From a virus: a stretch of 30,268 bases of DNA. The position numbers were made by a program, and so were the translations under genes. The stretch is taken from the IMG/VR virus record IMGVR_UViG_3300027983_000076, positions 1-30,268 of that record. One strand, 5' to 3'. Shown one piece after another: positions 4,997 through 13,752 of this stretch (position 1 is its first letter; each line of letters starts with the position of its first letter). The notes below the pieces were generated by a model. It worked only from the letters and a program-made list of their open reading frames with translations. It searched no databases and was not told where the DNA came from.

Positions 4997-6031
4997 TTAC
5001 AGAGAAGTTATACCCACTTCGATAACGCCCATGTGTCCGTTGTTCACCACAACCGCAGCACTCCAGAATGAAGCACCGACGTAGCCACGCTGACCAACAG
5101 GGTCGTCTTTAGTCCGCTGTGAAGCAGGCAGGTGGAACGGCTCAAAGTTGGCATTCAGTGCAATGTCAAACACGGCATCTTCACCGCAAACGATCATCGG
5201 GTACACGTCTAGGCTGGTTCCGCTAGTCGAATACAGACCAGTCGTACCGATAGAAGCGCCAGCGTCAGCGTAAGCAGACAACTCTTTCGACACGATGAAG
5301 CGGAAACGGCCTACAGAGCCGAGTTCGTTTTCGTTGATGATAGAGCGATTGGCGTACTTTGCGGTAGGCACAAAGTCTTGCAGGCGACGAATATCGTGCT
5401 CGCAATCGGTATGACAAAACACAATGAAACCAGCCTCGATGGCTGAAGTGTCATATGCCGGGCCGGGGGCCAAGATAGACGTTTTCATGTGGGCACCATT
5501 ACCCAGCAGAGTACGCGACAACAGAGAAAGTCCGTTGTAGGTGATGGCCTCATCGACAGTAGCGCGAGTCGTACCCCCACTGTATTGAACAGTGGTAGCA
5601 GCTTTCATCACGCCGTATCGAACCATCTCGCGCACAAGACCCATCAGTTGAGCGGTTTGCTTGACCTGATCCGCAGGGATGTCGTCTTCATGCAGCAGGG
5701 CCACTTTGTTGGTGTAGCTGAAGAGCACTGCGTATTCGGCAATGGTTACAGCCACATCACGGTAGTCAACTGCTTGTGCAGGCGGAGTGACACCCTCAGA
5801 GACTTGGTAGCTTGCAGCGGTAACAGACCAACGATTGATCGTTTTTGCACTGGTAGTAGATCCGCCGGTTGGGATAGTCCCACGATAGGTGATGTTGTCA
5901 CCTTTGTTACGGGGCATCTTCTTCATCTCGCAGCCAAGCTGCAAGACTTCGACGGGTTCGGTCATCTTGAGCATTTCGCCCTTGACCTCGTTGATACGCC
6001 CAGCGGGCGTTGTATAGTTATTTCCAGCCAT
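4997..6031 (-). CDS. Major capsid protein, N4-gp56 family
   Basis: 344 residues. The pattern fits the N4-gp56-type HK97-fold capsid family: an N-terminal helical arm (GRINEVKGEMLKMTEPVEVL), a beta region with PRNKGDNITYRGTIPTGG, and a helical segment with DIPADQVKQTAQLMGLVREM. It also has AGFIVFCHTDCEHDIRRL, where that family places D-x-R contacts, and a C-terminal FWSAAVVVNNGHMGVIEVG. The length is usual for the family. It lies 15 bases after the scaffold gene with an AAAAAAGGTAAATTATC leader. It builds the icosahedral shell. This call rests on recognition of the overall pattern and on the gene order portal-scaffold-capsid. Confidence 0.85.
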   Translation of the reverse strand: MAGNNYTTPAGRINEVKGEMLKMTEPVEVLQLGCEMKKMPRNKGDNITYRGTIPTGGSTTSAKTINRWSVTAASYQVSEGVTPPAQAVDYRDVAVTIAEYAVLFSYTNKVALLHEDDIPADQVKQTAQLMGLVREMVRYGVMKAATTVQYSGGTTRATVDEAITYNGLSLLSRTLLGNGAHMKTSILAPGPAYDTSAIEAGFIVFCHTDCEHDIRRLQDFVPTAKYANRSIINENELGSVGRFRFIVSKELSAYADAGASIGTTGLYSTSGTSLDVYPMIVCGEDAVFDIALNANFEPFHLPASQRTKDDPVGQRGYVGASFWSAAVVVNNGHMGVIEVGITSL

Positions 6032-6046
6032 GATAATTTACCTTTT

Positions 6047-6853
6047 TTACTTGAGACGCTTGTGGCCCTTGTTATAGCCAGCCCATAGGGCTTCGTCGTC
6101 TGATAACGTGGATAACCCAGCCTTCTGCGGTACACCTTGCGGGGTAATCGCACCGGCGAGTCGGTTTTGTTTCACTTCTCGTACCTTTAGAGATGCCTTG
6201 AAATCTGTCAGTCCTCTGGCAACTACGGCGGGATTCCAAGTCGAAGTGAACTTCTCTTGAAACTCGGACGGTTTGCCGGATAGCCAAGTCTTGTACTCAG
6301 GCGTATCCCGAACTGTCATAAAGTCAGGGTGCTCGTCTTTTAGCGCTTCAATCGCATCTTCCTGTCGTTCCTGCTGGCGCTCGGCTTGTCGCGTGGCCCT
6401 ACGTGCTTCGGGATCTTCTTGCACTTGAACCGGCTGTTGGAACAGTCGAGCTTTTAGTGCTTTGATTTCCCTAACCATTGGGCCTGCTAATTCCGGGTAC
6501 TCGCTTGCTGCTTCGTCCAGTGCGGCATCACCTTCGTCTGTGACGGGTGCGGGCGCAGGGGACTGCATTGCTTGCAGTGTTCGGTTGATGTCGCCGATCT
6601 GGCCGTGCATTTTTCGTACATCGGACGGATCGTTTTGACTCGCTGCTACCCTAGCTTTCAAGTCTCGCAACTCGTCGGCTAAGGTTGCCACAGTTATCTC
6701 AGGCAGCACTTCGATGGCAGGGTCTTCCTGTTCCGTCGATGGTTCCTGCACTTCTTCAACGGGGGGCTGTTCGCCGCGCGTTTGGTTGTACCCAGCCATC
6801 ACTTCAGCCAATTCCTCGGCTTCAGTTTGGGCTACCTGTTCTATCTCTGACAT
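6047..6853 (-). CDS. Capsid scaffolding protein
   Basis: 268 residues, strongly acidic N-terminal half (EEVQEPSTEQEDPAIEVLPE) and a central helical, Gln/Arg/Glu-rich part (ARRATRQAERQQERQEDAIE, about residues 150-170) with no globular motif. It ends in a short basic helix (DDEALWAGYNKGHKRLK), like the capsid-binding tails of other scaffold proteins. It sits immediately upstream of the major capsid gene, the classical place. It would template shell assembly and leave before packaging. The motif AGYN occurs at residues 20-23 and again at 258-261 and recurs in a small protein encoded at 13492-13752. A strong terminator precedes the gene, so it may have its own promoter. Confidence 0.8.
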   Translation of the reverse strand: MSEIEQVAQTEAEELAEVMAGYNQTRGEQPPVEEVQEPSTEQEDPAIEVLPEITVATLADELRDLKARVAASQNDPSDVRKMHGQIGDINRTLQAMQSPAPAPVTDEGDAALDEAASEYPELAGPMVREIKALKARLFQQPVQVQEDPEARRATRQAERQQERQEDAIEALKDEHPDFMTVRDTPEYKTWLSGKPSEFQEKFTSTWNPAVVARGLTDFKASLKVREVKQNRLAGAITPQGVPQKAGLSTLSDDEALWAGYNKGHKRLK

Positions 6854-6866
6854 TTAAATTCTCCAT

Positions 6867-6887
6867 AAAAAGCCACCCGAAGGCGGC
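6867..6887 (-). terminator. Rho-independent terminator with UUCG loop
   Basis: Minus strand GCCGCC-TTCG-GGTGGC (one G-U pair) followed by TTTTT. It lies in the 53-base gap between the small gene after the portal and the scaffold gene, separating portal from scaffold/capsid transcription. Confidence 0.88.
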
Positions 6888-6906
6888 AGGCATCGACGGG
6901 GGAGGC

Positions 6907-7119
6907 TTATGCAGCCTCGCGCGCCACTTTCTTCTTGTCTGGTTCACCCAGTTCAAGCAGATTTTTGATGTGCGATATTTGCCAAAGCAGAGGGAGACGG
7001 TCTGCTTCAGTAAGAATTGGGTTCTCTGCTCTGGCCCTTAGTTTTGCCAGTTGCGGTTCATAATGGTCGGTCAGCTTTTGCCACAAGGGCGAGCCAACCT
7101 CGTGTGTGTTCAGTTTCAT
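6907..7119 (-). CDS. Hypothetical helical protein coupled to portal
   Basis: 70 residues, charged and helical: MKLNTHEVGSPLWQKL, a long helix QLAKLRARAEN, then ADRLPLLWQISHIKNLLEL and a Lys-rich end (PDKKKVAREAA). The start codon overlaps the portal stop codon by four bases (ATGA), so it is translationally coupled to the portal. Small helical proteins of this kind are frequent beside portal genes, where they may assist portal or procapsid assembly; that role is a guess. No named family is recognised. It ends just before a strong terminator. Confidence 0.75.
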   Translation of the reverse strand: MKLNTHEVGSPLWQKLTDHYEPQLAKLRARAENPILTEADRLPLLWQISHIKNLLELGEPDKKKVAREAA

Positions 7120-9509
7120 TTTTGGAATGCCTGACCGTTAGGTGCTCGGCCTCGTGGCTCCATTGCTGGTTTGACAACTTGCGGTGGTTTGTAAGTCCCA
7201 GTCGCCATAGCAGCCAGTTCTTTCTGAGTGTTCAGCTTCATTGAAGTTTGAGCTAAGTCCGATTTGACGGCCTCAAGCGATATTTCGCGCCGGTTTGCAT
7301 ATTCAAGCAAGGCGAGTTCGCGCTTGAGTTCCAACTCAGTCATCTTGGCTTGATGGCCCAATTGATTCTGTTCGGTCTGTGCTTGCACAAACGCGGTGTC
7401 CCTATCGGTATCGACTTGCATTTTCTGCAACGAAGTCTGCTGCGCACCGTCTGCAATTCTGAGTCGTTCTTCACGGTCTGCATCTTCATTTGCATCGTCG
7501 ATCTTCAACTCTTCCATGCGTAGCTGTGTCATGGTGGTCAATTTATCAGCTTCTGTCTTGGCTCGAATGTTTGCCACTTCAATAGCTGGTGCCGGAGGAG
7601 CCTGCTGCTCATCGAGAACTTTTTGCTCTTCTTCGGTGTAATCGAATGCGGCTGGATCGAACCTTCTTGATTTTAGGTATTCGTCCATCGCTTTCTTTGG
7701 ATTCTTTCCAAAAGAAGGGTTCAGTGTCAATTGAAGCACACTGACCATTTCTTGACTCTGGATGTCTCGCTCCACCAAAGCGGTAGAACCACGGGCAATA
7801 ACTTGGAAATCACCCTTCATGTCGTCATCTTCGCCGTATTCCATCAGCCAAGCGTAGTACCTACGGATGTGGGGTTCGGTGATGCTGGAGTCGAATAGTC
7901 TGGCAATCCTTCGCAAAACAGCATTGGCATTGTTGTTCAGGATGGTCATTCCACCAACAGTATCTGGGGCGCTTCCTTGGCTTCCTTGCATCAGCATGGG
8001 CATACCAGTAACGTCCTCGGCCATCTTCATACCCAACTGGATGATGTTCGTCAGCTCGACCTGCATCATTGGAATGACAATCGAACTCACCGGCGAAGCA
8101 CCGCCACCAGTTGAATCATCCTCTTCAATCCAAATCTTTAGTGGGCGGATCTCCCAAATTCCGTTTTCAGGTTGAACCCCCCTGCGGACAACAAACATCG
8201 GCCCTGAACCCAGACCGGCATTTTCAGCAAGTTTCCGAGTCGCGGCTACAACAATTCGTTGTGGCGTTCTCAATTGTCTCGCAAGACCCATGCCCCACGG
8301 CATACCGGGGCGCTTCTTCCACGGGATCACGTCGTAAGGGAACTCGCCACTGTCCAAAGGATTCAACGCAGCACGGATGACGTTGTTGTTCACAATTGTC
8401 ATCAAAGCTGGATAACTTCTCTTGTCCTTACCTACCTCGCACCCGCAGGCTTCCATTTCCTCGGAAGTGATCGTGATGTGGGCGTACCAAATCTCAAACT
8501 GCTCCTTCGTGGATGCGTTTGTCCGGCTGTCGGCCTCTTTCCGATTACCCGGCCCCTCTTTTAGACTCTTGTCAATCTGTGAATCAATGTAGCCCGGAAC
8601 ACCTTTAAGGTCTTCAAGCTTCTTGGCCGTCATGTAATCACGTTCAAAAATGTAAGAACCATTGTGAATCGACTCTCCACAGGCCGGATCAGGAAACAAG
8701 TTCCACGGGTCAACCCTGAAACTTGCGGGTTTTATTTCTTCAATGACCATTAGGCCAGAACCTTGTTCATTCTGCGTCCACATGGCCGATTTACGCTTAA
8801 CAGGGACTGGGCCTTTGATAACCCCAGAACCCAGTTTCGCAGCATCGTCGATCACCGCGCGGATATTTGAATGGTATTGGGCCTCTTGCAGCCAGTCGTC
8901 AATCTGATTCTCAGCTAATCCAGCCCTGCGGAGGGCTTCAGCCTTCATCTTGATGTAGTCAGACTTTGCCTGCTCGGCAGCGGATATAGGTTGTGGAGGA
9001 GCCTCTTGACCCAGCATACCCGGTTGTGGAGCTTCTTGCGAACCGGGTTGACCGGGTGCCATCTGCGGGCCGGGTTGCACCTGCTGGACTACTGGTGGCG
9101 GAACCACTGGTTCAGGCTCATAGTTCGCCAACTCAGGTATCGGAGTAGGATCAATTGCATAATTCCGGTCATCAGTCGGGAGCAACATATCCCCCACACG
9201 GGCAGATACAGCATCTACATAAGGTTGAGTAATGTTCGGGAATACCGTCGATCCAGCCGAAGCCTCAGTCTCGCGCATCTGGCCATCAGCCGTCGGTTTA
9301 GCAGCCGTCTTGACGAACTCGTGCCGGTTGGCATCGTCGTACCCCTGATAGAACTCCTCATCCTGCGTCCACTCAAGCTCAATCCCAGTCTGAGCACGAG
9401 CAGTCACCGCGTCAGAACGCTTCGAGGCCAGAGTAGATCCCAAAGAATCCAAAATAGCAATGCGCATCTCGTCCGACGACTCTTGCACTGGGGAGGCTAG
9501 TTTGAGCAT
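7116..9509 (-). CDS. Portal protein (P22-like class)
   Basis: 797 residues, the size of large podovirus portals. The N-terminus is charged and helical (TGIELEWTQDEEFYQGYDD, about 41-59), followed by FPNITQPYVDAVSARVGDML. A Pro/Gln-rich linker spans about residues 131-174. The core has FRVDPWNLFPDPACG, then YDVIPWKKRPGMPWGMGLA and MAEDVTGMPMLMQGSQGS, typical of portal stem and crown regions. From about residue 640 the chain is a long Glu/Gln/Lys-rich helix (LRMEELKIDDANEDADREER), like the helical barrel of P22-type portals. It forms the dodecameric DNA channel and docks TerL. It lies between terminase and scaffold genes. Confidence 0.88.
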   Translation of the reverse strand: MLKLASPVQESSDEMRIAILDSLGSTLASKRSDAVTARAQTGIELEWTQDEEFYQGYDDANRHEFVKTAAKPTADGQMRETEASAGSTVFPNITQPYVDAVSARVGDMLLPTDDRNYAIDPTPIPELANYEPEPVVPPPVVQQVQPGPQMAPGQPGSQEAPQPGMLGQEAPPQPISAAEQAKSDYIKMKAEALRRAGLAENQIDDWLQEAQYHSNIRAVIDDAAKLGSGVIKGPVPVKRKSAMWTQNEQGSGLMVIEEIKPASFRVDPWNLFPDPACGESIHNGSYIFERDYMTAKKLEDLKGVPGYIDSQIDKSLKEGPGNRKEADSRTNASTKEQFEIWYAHITITSEEMEACGCEVGKDKRSYPALMTIVNNNVIRAALNPLDSGEFPYDVIPWKKRPGMPWGMGLARQLRTPQRIVVAATRKLAENAGLGSGPMFVVRRGVQPENGIWEIRPLKIWIEEDDSTGGGASPVSSIVIPMMQVELTNIIQLGMKMAEDVTGMPMLMQGSQGSAPDTVGGMTILNNNANAVLRRIARLFDSSITEPHIRRYYAWLMEYGEDDDMKGDFQVIARGSTALVERDIQSQEMVSVLQLTLNPSFGKNPKKAMDEYLKSRRFDPAAFDYTEEEQKVLDEQQAPPAPAIEVANIRAKTEADKLTTMTQLRMEELKIDDANEDADREERLRIADGAQQTSLQKMQVDTDRDTAFVQAQTEQNQLGHQAKMTELELKRELALLEYANRREISLEAVKSDLAQTSMKLNTQKELAAMATGTYKPPQVVKPAMEPRGRAPNGQAFQK

Positions 9510-9512
9510 GAG

Positions 9513-9776
9513 TTATAGCTTGTAGAAAATGGTCGCGTCAACCGTCCCACCAACCGTGACAGTCAGCCCACCCTTAAACCTACAAGGAATACGGTAAAAC
9601 GTAGCCGCCGCCGGGGTCATAGTATTAACAATCGTCCCATCACCATCAGCAAACTTCAGTGTCGGGGTGCCAGATGCAGATGCGACAAAAACACCTAGCA
9701 ACGTACCAGCTTTAAGCGCCGTACTCGTCGCGGTGATATTTAGACGTTCTGAGCCTTCAAAAACTTCTTGTGTCAT
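9513..9776 (-). CDS. Hypothetical small beta protein upstream of portal
   Basis: 87 residues: MTQEVFEGSERLNITATSTA, then GTLLGVFVASASGTPTLKF, a loop, and FYRIPCRFKGGLTVTVGG with the end TVDATIFYKL. It is predicted all-beta, without membrane or metal-binding features. It lies three bases before the portal start and just after a terminator, so it probably shares a transcript with the portal. Size and composition suit a minor head or decoration protein. I do not recognise the family. AAGGAATCGG precedes the start. Confidence 0.7.
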   Translation of the reverse strand: MTQEVFEGSERLNITATSTALKAGTLLGVFVASASGTPTLKFADGDGTIVNTMTPAAATFYRIPCRFKGGLTVTVGGTVDATIFYKL

Positions 9777-9793
9777 TTCCGATTCCTTAAATT

Positions 9794-9816
9794 AAAAAGC
9801 CGTCTCAATGGACGGC
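9794..9816 (-). terminator. Rho-independent terminator
   Basis: Minus strand GCCGTC, loop CATTGA, GACGGC, then TTTTT: six perfect pairs and a U-tract. It stands between the coiled-coil gene (stop at 9834) and the small beta-protein gene upstream of the portal. Confidence 0.9.
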
Positions 9817-9833
9817 CTGTTGGTTGATATTGG

Positions 9834-10721
9834 TTAGGGTATAGCCCTTATTGCATTTACCACTTTATGCCCATTCGCAACAATGTGAATTGCTTGATTT
9901 TCCGCATCAGAAATCAATTTCTGCCCATTTTTGACAATCCGTACAACGGCGGCCCCTGCATCAGCTTTTGATTTATTCAAGCCTCTCAATATCGCATGGT
10001 CTTGCTCGATTTGATCCTTATTCCGCTTATGGATCGCCTCGTATTCCAAATTTTCCTGCCTGCGACTTCCATGCACATACCCAGCTAATACTTCGGCGCG
10101 TGTCTTTGCAATAGCCTCTGCTTCGGCAACAATTTTATTGGCCTGTGCGTCCGCATCTAGAATCCACTTCTTAACGAACTTCTTGGCATTGGTGACTTTG
10201 GCGTTCATCACCTGTAGCCGTTTGCGAGACTCGGCTAAATTTGCATCAGAGATTTTCGTCGCCTCAATCACATCTCCAAGATTGTCATGCGCCATCTTGA
10301 ACTCAGAAATAAACTTCTGCCCATTAGAATCCTTGGCGGCAGCAACCTTAAAGTCCCGCATCTTCTTTGCCATGTTGTTAATAATCGCTCCGCCCTCAGC
10401 TATTCTGCCCTCTACATCAGACAACGATTGATCCGCAGCTTCTTTCTGCCTATCCCAATCAATCAGACTCAAAGCCCGGTGCTTGGCTATGTCGGCACGC
10501 TCGGCCTTGGCATCTTGTATCGCAGCGTTAAGAACCTTCAACTCACCAATCGCTGCAACCAGCCTGCCCTGCGTTTTCTCTGCCAACTCAGACTCTGCCT
10601 TGGCAACTTTAGCCTCCCACGTACTAGGCTCATCAACTACCGATAAGACTTCACGCTCCGGCGGCAACATGCCATCACTAACCAAAACTTTAGGTGCAAA
10701 AAACCTTCTGAAAATTCCCAT
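9834..10721 (-). CDS. Coiled-coil protein between terminase and portal
   Basis: 295 residues, almost wholly helical. After MGIFRRFFAPK, an amphipathic basic start, comes a long Ala/Glu/Lys-rich coiled coil (EAKVAKAESELAEKTQGR; IQDAKAERADIAKHR). A helical region around 150-215 includes DADAQANKIVAEAEAIAKTR. The C-terminus is Ala/Val/Ile-rich (AGAAVVRIVKNGQK; NGHKVVNAIRAIP). Such proteins can be ejected or internal virion proteins or chaperones; nothing decides between these. It contains AEVLAGY (209-215), close to the AEVMAGYN of the scaffold. It ends before a terminator. No family recognised. Confidence 0.75.
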   Translation of the reverse strand: MGIFRRFFAPKVLVSDGMLPPEREVLSVVDEPSTWEAKVAKAESELAEKTQGRLVAAIGELKVLNAAIQDAKAERADIAKHRALSLIDWDRQKEAADQSLSDVEGRIAEGGAIINNMAKKMRDFKVAAAKDSNGQKFISEFKMAHDNLGDVIEATKISDANLAESRKRLQVMNAKVTNAKKFVKKWILDADAQANKIVAEAEAIAKTRAEVLAGYVHGSRRQENLEYEAIHKRNKDQIEQDHAILRGLNKSKADAGAAVVRIVKNGQKLISDAENQAIHIVANGHKVVNAIRAIP

Positions 10722-10820
10722 GATTCATCCCCCAATGAACCCCCGAATTGAACAACATGGCAACCTGTCGGGGTAACAGGGCTTCGGAAGCGATCCTAGC
10801 CAATGTTGATTGTCAAGCGT

Positions 10821-10850
10821 ATCTTACTCTCTCTACGCAAATTCCGTAAA
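10821..10850 (-). promoter_or_regulatory. Possible promoter downstream of terminase
   Basis: In the 161-base gap between the large-terminase stop and the coiled-coil start, the minus strand shows TTTACG, 18 bases, then TAAGAT. This is a weak match to a sigma-70 promoter. A TTGACA lies slightly further on (10811-10816) but without a -10 at the right distance. A small CCTGT/ACAGG hairpin follows. This could restart transcription for the head genes. Confidence 0.25.
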
Positions 10851-10882
10851 AAATTTCAGGTGCGCTCTATAGCCCCCACCCA

Positions 10883-12331
10883 TTACATTCCCATCCCTCG
10901 GTCGTGCGTGGTGTACACAGATCCATGCCGCCTTAACTTAGCAGGCGTATTCGTCACAGCAAATCGCTTCATCATCATTCCATACCGAGTCGCACTAATC
11001 AAGTCATCGTCCAACTTAACCACCTTACCATCCTTGCGATGATACATCCTAAATTCTTCAAACCAATCCGATAAGTGAGCGAACACTTTGAAACGGCCAG
11101 TCTGCATTCGGTCTAGGAGATCCATTAAGCCTGCTTCTACACCATTGCCGCCCCCTCCCTCTTTCTCGTTCCGGGGTGGTGGGTGGGTCGCCTTGTCCTT
11201 GAGCATTTTCAGTCCCTGCGCCCTGTACTGGCTTGCCAAGGTTTCGCCAGATCCTTTGTCGTGCTGCAATCCATCGTGAGGCCAAGACCACGGCAGCCAT
11301 GCGCCCCAAGGTTTCACGGTGGCTGCGAAGAGAACGGGTGTCTGTTCCCTTTGCCTGTGTGCTGCGGTGACGTAGATAGTGTCGCTATCCCTGTCCCAAG
11401 CCAGCTTAACAGCGGCGCTGGGGTGATCCCACCCGAAGTCGATGCCGCCTATTTGCACCCAGTGCGCCGGGATTGGCATGGCTTGGCAAGTAATCAGGCT
11501 TTCCTCGACTGGGAAGATGCGGCCTGAACCTAGTGTCGGTATGCCTTTCGTCCTTGCCTCGCGCTCGTGGGCTGGATAGCTGGCGATAATCGCTATCCTC
11601 TGATCCGGTGTGTAGTGATTCGCGTCTTCAATCGTCATCGTTGTGATGCTGCTGCCGGGTGACTTGTCGATCAAGAACCGCTTAACCGTGCCTGTCATGC
11701 CTTTGAGTGGCGTGAACGTCATGTAGACGATGCCACCAGTGGCGTTTGTCCTTGTCAGGCTCTCGGTGTAGATCTCCTCGTCTGGCTCCTCATCAAGCCA
11801 TACGAAGTCCAGCGTCTCAGCTTGAAATTTCTCGCGGCCCTGATCGTAGCTCTTGAATCCCAGTAGGCTTTCCCCGGCCTGAAGGTCACCTCCACCGCCG
11901 TGACGTACTACTAAAGTATCAATTGCGTCTGCTACGCCACGTTTCAGGCTCCTTGACTTGATCGCATCTGCTGGGATTGACCCAGTACCAATGGCGTTAA
12001 TCCTGCCAGCAAGTACCCTTTGTACTGAATCGCGGGTGACTTCGCTCGTCACTCCTGCTGCCCATCCTGCGACTGCCTTGTTCCACGTCCTGCCTGTCCA
12101 CCAGTTCGGATACCGTCCAGTCAAGTGCATGGCTGTCTCGAACCCGGCGCTCCAAGTCTTGCCTAGCTGATTCCCAGCGATCAACAACCTCTCGCGGTAC
12201 TGGCTTCCCTTGCCGTGAAACTCGGCTTGCTTGGGGTATGGGTGATAAAGCTCAATCTTGCGCTCGGAAATGTATTGCGCTGTCGCAGCCATCATCACCT
12301 CGTGTTTGACCGGATCGTACTCATTTCCCAT
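10883..12331 (-). CDS. Terminase large subunit (TerL)
   Basis: 482 residues, usual for TerL. The ATPase shows Walker A AGNQLGKT (52-59), Walker B FVWLDEEP (176-183, D180 and E181) and a coupling motif TFTPLKG (205-211). The RNase H-like nuclease begins at GGIDFGWDHP (D298), with a second acidic site at PHDG (D353) and a third in LDDDLISATRYG (441-443). It cuts concatemers and pumps DNA through the portal. A Gly-rich stretch near 392-396 is a likely linker. The gene follows TerS after 83 bases. The protein is complete with all expected catalytic residues. Confidence 0.95.
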   Translation of the reverse strand: MGNEYDPVKHEVMMAATAQYISERKIELYHPYPKQAEFHGKGSQYRERLLIAGNQLGKTWSAGFETAMHLTGRYPNWWTGRTWNKAVAGWAAGVTSEVTRDSVQRVLAGRINAIGTGSIPADAIKSRSLKRGVADAIDTLVVRHGGGGDLQAGESLLGFKSYDQGREKFQAETLDFVWLDEEPDEEIYTESLTRTNATGGIVYMTFTPLKGMTGTVKRFLIDKSPGSSITTMTIEDANHYTPDQRIAIIASYPAHEREARTKGIPTLGSGRIFPVEESLITCQAMPIPAHWVQIGGIDFGWDHPSAAVKLAWDRDSDTIYVTAAHRQREQTPVLFAATVKPWGAWLPWSWPHDGLQHDKGSGETLASQYRAQGLKMLKDKATHPPPRNEKEGGGGNGVEAGLMDLLDRMQTGRFKVFAHLSDWFEEFRMYHRKDGKVVKLDDDLISATRYGMMMKRFAVTNTPAKLRRHGSVYTTHDRGMGM

Positions 12332-12414
12332 TTAAACAACACTTTCTGCGATGTATCGGGTCACTAGGAAGGCCGTAGAGCGATTATTCCTGCGAGTTGA
12401 TACCTGAGTGCCAG

Positions 12415-12876
12415 TCAATTCGTTGCCTTCGCCTGAATGACCTTAACTTGCTCCATTGCGTCCAGCATAGACTGAGCTTCCTCGGCTGTCATGCCTGACA
12501 ATGCCTTTTTGAACGGATCGGTCATATCTTCATGCCGTTCGACATAAAGCCCCGAAGCTCGGCCTCGGCTTATCTCTGCGGCTGTCGCTGACGAATACTG
12601 CTTAGCTTCTTCAGCCAGTTCGCTCAGGCGTTGCAGTCTATCCAAGTGGCCTTTCAAGCTAATCTGCGCGGCTTCGACTGCTGGCGCTCTGATCTCGGCG
12701 ACCCTTGCTACCACCTTGCTATTTAACATAAGTCGGCTTGCTGCTTCATTTATTGTCTTTTCTGTGCAGTCTTGGCTGTATCCTGCTGCTCGGTAAACGT
12801 CAGACTGGTTCAGTGTCCCGGCGACAATACCTTGTGCGAATGCCTCTTGACGTTGGGTGATTTGTCTATCGCTCAT
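12415..12876 (-). CDS. Terminase small subunit (TerS)
   Basis: 153 residues from the ATG at 12876, chosen because AGGAAGAACCC precedes it and it overlaps the upstream stop by ATGA. A start 15 codons earlier lacks such a site. The N-terminus RQITQRQEAFAQGIVAGTLN and SDVYRAAGYS followed by INEAASRLMLNSKVVARV is the usual helix-turn-helix DNA-binding domain of small terminases. A helical oligomerisation part follows (LKGHLDRLQRLSELAEEAKQ), and the C-terminal helix SMLDAMEQVKVIQAK would contact TerL. It recognises the packaging site and presents DNA to TerL. Confidence 0.88.
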   Translation of the reverse strand: MSDRQITQRQEAFAQGIVAGTLNQSDVYRAAGYSQDCTEKTINEAASRLMLNSKVVARVAEIRAPAVEAAQISLKGHLDRLQRLSELAEEAKQYSSATAAEISRGRASGLYVERHEDMTDPFKKALSGMTAEEAQSMLDAMEQVKVIQAKATN

Positions 12877-13028
12877 GGGTTCTTCCTGATCTGGTCTGCG
12901 AGTTCTTCGATGTTCACGCACTCCTCGGCGAGTATTGCGCAGCGTTCGCGTTCCGTTATGGTTGCTTGGTTGGCTATCAACTCTTTGGCTACGCTTTGCA
13001 GTTCATCGAAGGTTGATTGATTGCTCAT
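12873..13028 (-). CDS. Hypothetical 51-aa protein coupled to TerS
   Basis: A short open frame, MSNQSTFDELQSVAKELI to EELADQIRKNP, linked by ATGA overlaps at both ends (upstream gene at 13025-13028, TerS at 12873-12876). It is acidic and helical, with TERERCAILAEECVNIEEL in the middle, a pattern found in many small phage proteins next to terminase. No catalytic motif. The two overlaps and its position are the evidence that it is real. Its last codons carry the AGGAAG that serves as ribosome site for TerS. Confidence 0.7.
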   Translation of the reverse strand: MSNQSTFDELQSVAKELIANQATITERERCAILAEECVNIEELADQIRKNP

Positions 13029-13288
13029 GGGTTTGTTTTCTGGTTGGTTGCGCGGCGCTTTGCCATCAATACGCGCTGGTACTCGTTGCGCTTTGCTTTG
13101 TCTTTGTGCCTATCGCCTGATCTGTTAGCCACCACCGTCATTGCGTTAGCCACCACGTTAGCCACCACAATCTCAGGCTCGGCGACCTTTGGGGTTGCTT
13201 GGCGCTCGGCGAATTCTCTTTGTCTCCGGGCTATCGTGCAGCCGATTGTTGCTTTGTGTTCGTGTCCACAAGCTTTACAGGCGCTCAT
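13025..13288 (-). CDS. Hypothetical small Cys/His protein
   Basis: 87 residues. The N-terminus MSACKACGHEHKATIGC holds a C-x2-C-x-H-x-H-x5-C cluster (C4, C7, H9, H11, C17) that could bind zinc. It is followed by ARRQREFAERQATPK, a Val/Ala/Asn-rich stretch (VVANVVANAMTVVAN), and a basic tail DRHKDKAKRNEYQRVLMAKR, which could bind nucleic acid. Overlaps of ATGA type join it to both neighbours in the pre-terminase cluster. I do not recognise the family. Confidence 0.7.
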   Translation of the reverse strand: MSACKACGHEHKATIGCTIARRQREFAERQATPKVAEPEIVVANVVANAMTVVANRSGDRHKDKAKRNEYQRVLMAKRRATNQKTNP

Positions 13289-13488
13289 TGAATATGGCTC
13301 GCGGGAATGCTCGTCATCGTTCCGTTGTAAGTCGGTTCGGCTGATTCTTGAACCACTTTGTTGAGATAGTCCTGCAACCTCTCGCCCAGTGCCACTGCTC
13401 CGCTGGTTTCGTCGAAGTCGCTGACTTTGATTTCGACGGCTGTCAGGCCGTCATTAGTGTCGGTTAGCTGGATAGTGACTTGGCTCAT
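13285..13488 (-). CDS. Hypothetical 67-aa protein
   Basis: MSQVTIQLTDTNDGLTAVEI, then KVSDFDETSGAVALGERLQD and YLNKVVQESAEPTYNG. A beta-hairpin start followed by a helix, acidic overall. It is coupled by ATGA to the next gene and lies three bases after the gene encoding the AGYNKG protein. GGAGAGTAAAAC precedes its ATG. No family or function recognised; presumably an accessory to assembly or packaging by location. Confidence 0.65.
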   Translation of the reverse strand: MSQVTIQLTDTNDGLTAVEIKVSDFDETSGAVALGERLQDYLNKVVQESAEPTYNGTMTSIPASHIQ

Positions 13489-13491
13489 GTT

Positions 13492-13752
13492 TTACTCTCC
13501 AAAAACGGCCTGAGGCGAAGGTTTGGCGTTCATTGTGGGTGCGCCTTTGTTGTAGCCAGCGAGCATTTCTGCCTCGGGGTCGCCTTGCTCACCGCCTCCA
13601 AGAGCTTGCAGGGCTTGTTCTAGCAAGCCTAGAAGAATTCCTAGTGTCTCTGCGTTCGCTGGCTCGGTGCCGTCTATGTAGAGTTGTGTTCGTTCGGCGG
13701 CTTGCTGAATTAATGCAGCGGCTTCATCGGTGTGTGGATAACCTTGTGGCAT
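13492..13752 (-). CDS. Hypothetical 86-aa protein with scaffold-like AGYNKG motif
   Basis: 86 residues: a helical N-terminus (DEAAALIQQAAERTQLY), a Leu/Ala-rich helix (GILLGLLEQALQALGGGEQG), and the segment EAEMLAGYNKGAPTMN at residues 61-76. The motif AGYNKG recurs at the C-terminus of the scaffolding protein (AGYNKG, 258-263) and as AGYNQ at its N-terminus. No other family is recognised. It is the first full gene of the minus-strand late cluster. AGAGG precedes the start and lies over the end of a tiny upstream frame. A role with the scaffold or capsid is inference from the shared motif. Confidence 0.65.
   Translation of the reverse strand: MPQGYPHTDEAAALIQQAAERTQLYIDGTEPANAETLGILLGLLEQALQALGGGEQGDPEAEMLAGYNKGAPTMNAKPSPQAVFGE

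Follow-up and report, generated by a model that had tools for sequence, protein, structure and literature searches.

Head genes and motif copies in the window

The window, by which we mean the whole stretch of viral DNA analysed here (30,268 nucleotides), carries a head gene module on its minus strand in the order gp86, gp67, gp87, small terminase, large terminase, coiled-coil protein, gp87b, portal, gp70, scaffold and coat (Table 1). The coat belongs to the N4-gp56 family of major capsid proteins, scoring 199.2 bits against TIGR04387 (cut-off 60), and the best Foldseek matches of its model are the capsids of N4, B2, Moo19 and DEV (E about 1e-18 to 1e-16). The protein encoded just ahead of it was named scaffold because of its gene position; matches in PHROGs were weak only and of unknown function. 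Apart from lying between portal and coat, it shares with tailed-phage scaffolding proteins a mostly helical structure and flexible ends, the AlphaFold2 model being helical over most of its length, with residues 26–54 or so forming a linker of low confidence. Relatives of gp70 are present in most loci spanning the portal–scaffold gap. Apparent homing-endonuclease insertions were also seen within head modules of relatives, namely an HNH-like ORF that separates portal from gp70 (L007:2146-2916) and, in StenR_269, an annotated intron homing endonuclease between scaffold and coat (L031:13932-14381).

Table 1. Head module features and motif copies in the window, with the basis of each assignment
Feature	Position	Strand	Basis or remark
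Coat protein, N4-gp56 family, proposed motif partner	4997..6031	(-)	TIGR04387, Foldseek
Scaffold protein, 268 aa	6047..6853	(-)	Immediately upstream of coat gene, between portal/gp70 and coat; position kept in relatives
Scaffold C-terminal motif copy, residues 253-264 DEALWAGYNKGH	6062..6097	(-)	Predicted helix 252-267
Scaffold N-terminal motif copy, residues 15-26 LAEVMAGYNQTR	6776..6811	(-)	Predicted helix 8-25
gp70, 70-aa protein between portal and scaffold	6907-7119		Relatives at same place
Portal protein, alternative motif partner	7116..9509	(-)	phrog_332 (head-tail adaptor), phrog_1216 (portal)
AEVLAGY in coiled-coil protein (9834-10721)	10077..10097	(-)	Judged a probable chance match, outside the system
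Large terminase subunit	10883..12331	(-)	Synteny and 57-81% identity to related IMG/VR loci
Small terminase subunit	12415..12921	(-)	phrog_51; Terminase_2 under cut-off
gp86, small acidic protein, 86 aa, pI 4.2	13492..13752	(-)	Opens the head cluster, ahead of the small terminase gene
Third motif copy, gp86 residues 60-71 EAEMLAGYNKGA	13540..13575	(-)	Rank 1 of 260 ORFs; kept in homologous tails

The window proteins contain the string AGYN[KQ] three times, at scaffold residues 20–24 and 258–262 and at residues 65–69 of gp86. An earlier, sequence-only reading of this DNA had pointed out the sharing of the motif by these two proteins; its AGYNKG strings at the scaffold C-end and in gp86 were correct in coordinates and residues, whereas the N-terminal AGYNQ, given there as residues 20–23, spans residues 20–24. 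AGYN is found exactly three times among the 35 likely genes (7,244 aa), and within-protein shuffles yielded on average 0.060 AGYN and 0.007 AGYN[KQ], with none of 2,000 shuffles reaching three; the sharing is confirmed. Plain AGY is likewise overrepresented (six seen versus 1.6 expected; 11 of 2,000 shuffles as high), an excess due to the three AGYN copies and one to which the AEVLAGY of the coiled-coil protein contributes nothing.

When all 260 window ORFs of at least 40 aa were scored against the two scaffold motifs, gp86 gave the top match (score 33), followed by the coiled-coil protein (score 26), the latter inside the background range of other loci. This 295-aa protein, encoded between the terminase and portal genes, had been counted as a further motif member in the sequence-only reading, a claim that our data do not bear out: its AEVLAGY is internal (residues 209–215 of 295), lacks the Asn and scores at background level, and no homologue was found except on a near-identical contig. 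The string is probably a chance match, and the protein was rejected as a motif carrier.

Motif conservation in scaffolds and small acidic proteins

Scaffolds of relatives were gathered via two coat scans and one large-terminase scan of IMG/VR, supplemented by named phages, yielding 101 distinct scaffolds, each encoded upstream of coats that range down to about 25% identity to the coat of the window; a coat-query scan of bacterial genomes returned no matches. A profile trained on both ends detected the motif at the N-end of 88, at the C-end of 92 and at both ends of 85 of the 101 scaffolds. Both ends share the pattern [DE]xx[F/M/L]xxG[Y/F], with the consensus [ED][AD]x[F/M/L]x[A]G[Y/F]N, and the motif is placed 4–48 residues from the scaffold start in most cases and no more than about 23 from the end. 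In the AlphaFold2 model of the window scaffold, both motifs are helical and connected by low-confidence linkers to the helical body. The scaffold core, including an HPD...W region, is conserved alongside the motif.

Direct searches with gp86 found nothing in phages or IMG/VR, and its homologues came from synteny, being located by their position directly upstream of the small terminase gene in L065, L069, L013, L019, L016 and L015. The C-terminal half of gp86 is 48–49% identical to the L065 and L069 proteins at this same gene position. The L019 and L084 homologues were likewise missed by a direct search of named phages and recovered by synteny. No match to gp86 was obtained in PHROGs, Pfam (E ≤ 1) or NCBIfam, and ten of its homologues together gave a single sub-cut-off match in Pfam, to an unrelated family. 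We define the family as acidic proteins of less than 160 aa encoded inside the head gene cluster, with the motif at most 20 aa from the C-end. Gp86 belongs to it, with an N-terminal half that differs. Most members comprise a beta-hairpin, an acidic linker, a helix (SxDEALxxAxxLL) and the tail, as far as secondary structure can be read off the sequence, and their pI lies between 4.05 and 4.56. Since gp86 and the L161 protein have other N-terminal halves and retain the tail, the tail looks like the fixed part of the family.

Sufficient upstream sequence was available in 37 loci. In 12 of them, the match ranking first outside the scaffold gene was a small ORF lying upstream and bearing the motif close to its C-end, versus 1.95 expected from random scaffold segments, and none of 200,000 simulations reached 12. 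In five nearly complete contigs (37–61 kb), scaffold and small protein alone clearly stand out. The motif is thus kept in homologues of both proteins in which it had been noticed, at both ends of most scaffolds and on the tails of small proteins in several lineages. No small protein was found in L121, L124, L131, L132, L167 and L175 within about 9 kb upstream of the scaffold. It is also absent from phages that have a 57–81% identical large terminase and a different head type, indicating that the small protein follows the head and not the terminase. We further observed an unannotated 85-aa ORF for a small acidic protein upstream of the terminase genes of MW202426.1 (L030:13606-13863), the tail of which, NQGFKSVRG, matches the C-end TKGFNSIRK of the scaffold from the same phage, and a second small protein (67 aa) with the motif-like string LSELMQGYRAS at L016:2246-2449.

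Parallel change of the copies and the candidate binding partner

N- and C-terminal copies from a single scaffold are much closer to one another than permuted ends are (mean BLOSUM score 20.1 versus 11.5, sd 0.72; 0 of 10,000 permutations). Their aromatic residues agree in 66 of 80 scaffolds, with F/F in 35 and Y/Y in 31, and are mixed F/Y in four. On a tree of the 80 coats, the C-end aromatic switches between Tyr and Phe seven times, and the N-end switches on five of the same branches (hypergeometric p = 1.5e-6), such a same-branch count being a control of the simplest kind for shared ancestry. Small-protein tails in turn tend to match the scaffold class of their own phage, be it GYN, DFDxGF or LWNEEA, with a median normalised rank of the own-phage scaffold of 0.044 of 80 (Fisher p about 2e-7, 15 lineages), a result somewhat inflated because the small-protein homologues were partly chosen by motif. 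The scaffold of L084 carries DEDFDAGF and DDDFDEGF and its small protein NEFDEGF; the corresponding strings are DADFDAGF, EDEFSAGF and DADLDAGF in L093, QLWNEEA, ELWNYEA and AAWDEEA in L112, and IQAGYDRIANP, IRAGYERVAG and IQAGYDKVANP in L133. Parallel motif change in scaffold and small protein is what a common binding site predicts.

Copies might instead have arisen from duplication or similar composition and have no partner in common, their parallel change reflecting nothing except shared ancestry; acidic, Ala/Gly-rich tails are indeed common in phage proteins, and the lineages are related, so that the counts are not independent. We consider this improbable, as scaffold and small protein are otherwise unlike, and as the parallel class changes and the same-branch switches of the two scaffold ends are difficult to explain unless a common constraint acts. 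A docking peptide common to the scaffold ends and the small protein is therefore well supported at the level of sequence. The sequence-only reading had proposed such a peptide, and it holds with respect to the motif being kept and changing in parallel, with the coiled-coil protein excluded. The copies may compete for one capsid or portal site, as had been suggested along with it.

The partner should be one inherited with the head genes, namely coat, portal, gp70 or the scaffold itself. If the motif bound a chaperone or protease of the host and each lineage were adapted to its own host, lineage-specific variants would likewise arise, but the aromatic Y/F class changed only seven times across the 80-coat tree, which suggests inheritance of the partner with the head genes and makes a host factor highly improbable. 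Terminase is an unlikely partner too, because phages with similar large terminases and other heads have no small protein; large and small terminase were rejected on these grounds, and the two TerS matches, in L013 and L120, are AGF/AGY strings inside the protein and a long way from its C-end. Our best guess is the coat. Two things favour it, namely that scaffold C-ends are known to serve in contacts with the coat (PMC12005531), and that paired motifs are also present at the scaffold ends of N4-like phages, whose coats are of the same family. The paired motifs of these Schitoviridae scaffolds, although of another class, point to coat or portal. Gp70 could be another potential partner.

Docking of the motif on the coat, for which the sequence-only reading had called for modelling, received no support from AlphaFold2 on a single coat chain. 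Block means of motif-helix confidence were 69, 76 and 60 in a scaffold–coat read-through fusion and 73, 81 and 67 for the scaffold alone. The slightly higher values of the scaffold-only model would agree with a socket on the helical core of the scaffold, by which the scaffold would join end to core and the small protein would cap or regulate this contact, and so would the conservation of the core with its HPD...W region together with the motif. We regard such a socket as doubtful, given that the Tyr/Phe switches are not mirrored in core columns (best p = 0.0018, 265 columns) and that known scaffolds use their C-termini to bind coat (PMC12005531). Less probable still is a socket on the portal, with scaffold ends and small protein gathering at the portal vertex and the small protein preparing terminase docking: the portal is conserved across the whole group, the C-loop of the P22 scaffold occupies portal clefts (PMC12005531) and the small gene adjoins the terminase genes, but no portal column changes along with the motif more than chance would allow (best p = 0.001, 700 columns). 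Coat columns gave no convincing association with the Tyr/Phe switches either, the best being p = 2e-4 over 319 columns for residue 16. This residue of the N-terminal arm changes on five motif-aromatic switch branches and is a weak pointer to the N-arm. In P22, the scaffold hook binds the coat N-arm (PMC12005531).

On balance we lean towards a model in which the motif would be a short docking helix matched to the head of its own phage. In the scaffold, two copies would flank the helical body, each attached through a flexible acidic linker, and in a subset of the group a small acidic protein, usually made just ahead of the small terminase subunit, would present a third copy on its C-terminal tail. 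Every copy would most likely dock into one pocket on the N4-gp56 coat protein, at the inner face of the procapsid lattice, and two plugs per scaffold molecule would tie two coat subunits or capsomers together. Via the same plug, the small protein would get onto or into the procapsid, where it might aid the start of packaging in the manner of lambda gpFI or, alternatively, take scaffold sites and thereby help the scaffold leave. Of the elements of this model, the motifs, the gene order and the conservation and parallel change of the copies are direct observations, whereas we infer the common pocket, its location on the coat, the bivalency of the scaffold and the role of the small protein, the last being suggested, for packaging start, by the neighbouring terminase genes and by lambda gpFI as a precedent. 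A more tentative proposal, possible rather than expected, is that N4-gp56 phages use a two-ended scaffold plugged into the coat lattice at either end and that many of them add a small acidic protein copying the plug to enter or take over scaffold sites, thereby timing scaffold exit or terminase docking, with all three copies matched within a lineage.

For most tailed phages, there is still little detail on how scaffolds grip coat subunits and what triggers their release. A plug present at both scaffold ends and in a separate protein would offer a sequence-readable handle on this hold-and-release step. The motif predicts binding pairs across a large phage group and suggests what an unannotated small protein may do, and if the more tentative proposal is true, the three lineage-matched copies would amount to a specificity code for head assembly.

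Comparison with known scaffolds and accessory proteins

Coat binding by the scaffold C-terminus is already known. The N-loop of P22 gp8 (residues 1–57) carries negative charge and has been implicated both in the release of the scaffold and in the assembly of gp16 (PMC12005531). Like gp8, the window scaffold has a helical body between an N-terminal flexible stretch and a C-terminal, putatively coat-binding part, a hook in gp8. Unlike the scaffolds of the P22 study, whose coat-binding regions are C-terminal, it repeats its C-terminal motif at the N-terminus (PMC12005531). Comparison of the scaffold model with the PDB gave no match at E ≤ 0.001, P22 included, and thus no gp8 fold was recognised. 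The plug repeat at the N-end, its copy in a small protein and their parallel change are undescribed in the open papers searched, and an earlier description of the motif may exist elsewhere.

The lambda packaging chaperone gpFI is a small accessory protein for which binding to the coat lattice of the prohead and a helping role in terminase docking have been proposed (PMC4856287). Gp86 resembles it as a small protein and proposed accessory; unlike gpFI, which is proposed to act via non-specific DNA binding, gp86 is acidic and carries a copy of the scaffold motif. It gave no match to a Pfam packaging family and is not assigned to the gpFI family.

In the Schitoviridae, N4 gp57 occupies the gene place of the window scaffold, between portal and N4-gp56 coat, and its paired end motif is of the MSDEEFxK class, unlike that of the window scaffold. 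Paired ends were found in seven of the nine gp57-type proteins examined, being weaker in AD45-P2, with the FMD5 annotation lacking the N-end. Examples are IMDMSPEELAQVNP and ILSMSAEEFAKVNP in Presley, and IFSMSDEDFMKL and PLAMSDDEFMKQ in Ea9-2. Proteins of this type (L203-L207, L209, L210 and L033; Schitoviridae and AD45-P2) are annotated as tail length tape measure protein. Their gene place and paired end motifs suggest that N4 gp57 and its counterparts are probably the scaffold of N4-like phages. Unlike in the window phage, no small protein with a third copy was found in three complete Schitoviridae genomes.

Short peptides that direct a protein into a shell include the capsid-targeting sequences of phage T4 and the cargo peptides of encapsulins. 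To our knowledge, neither has been described as a copy of both scaffold ends. The motif studied here would resemble them as a short peptide of this kind.
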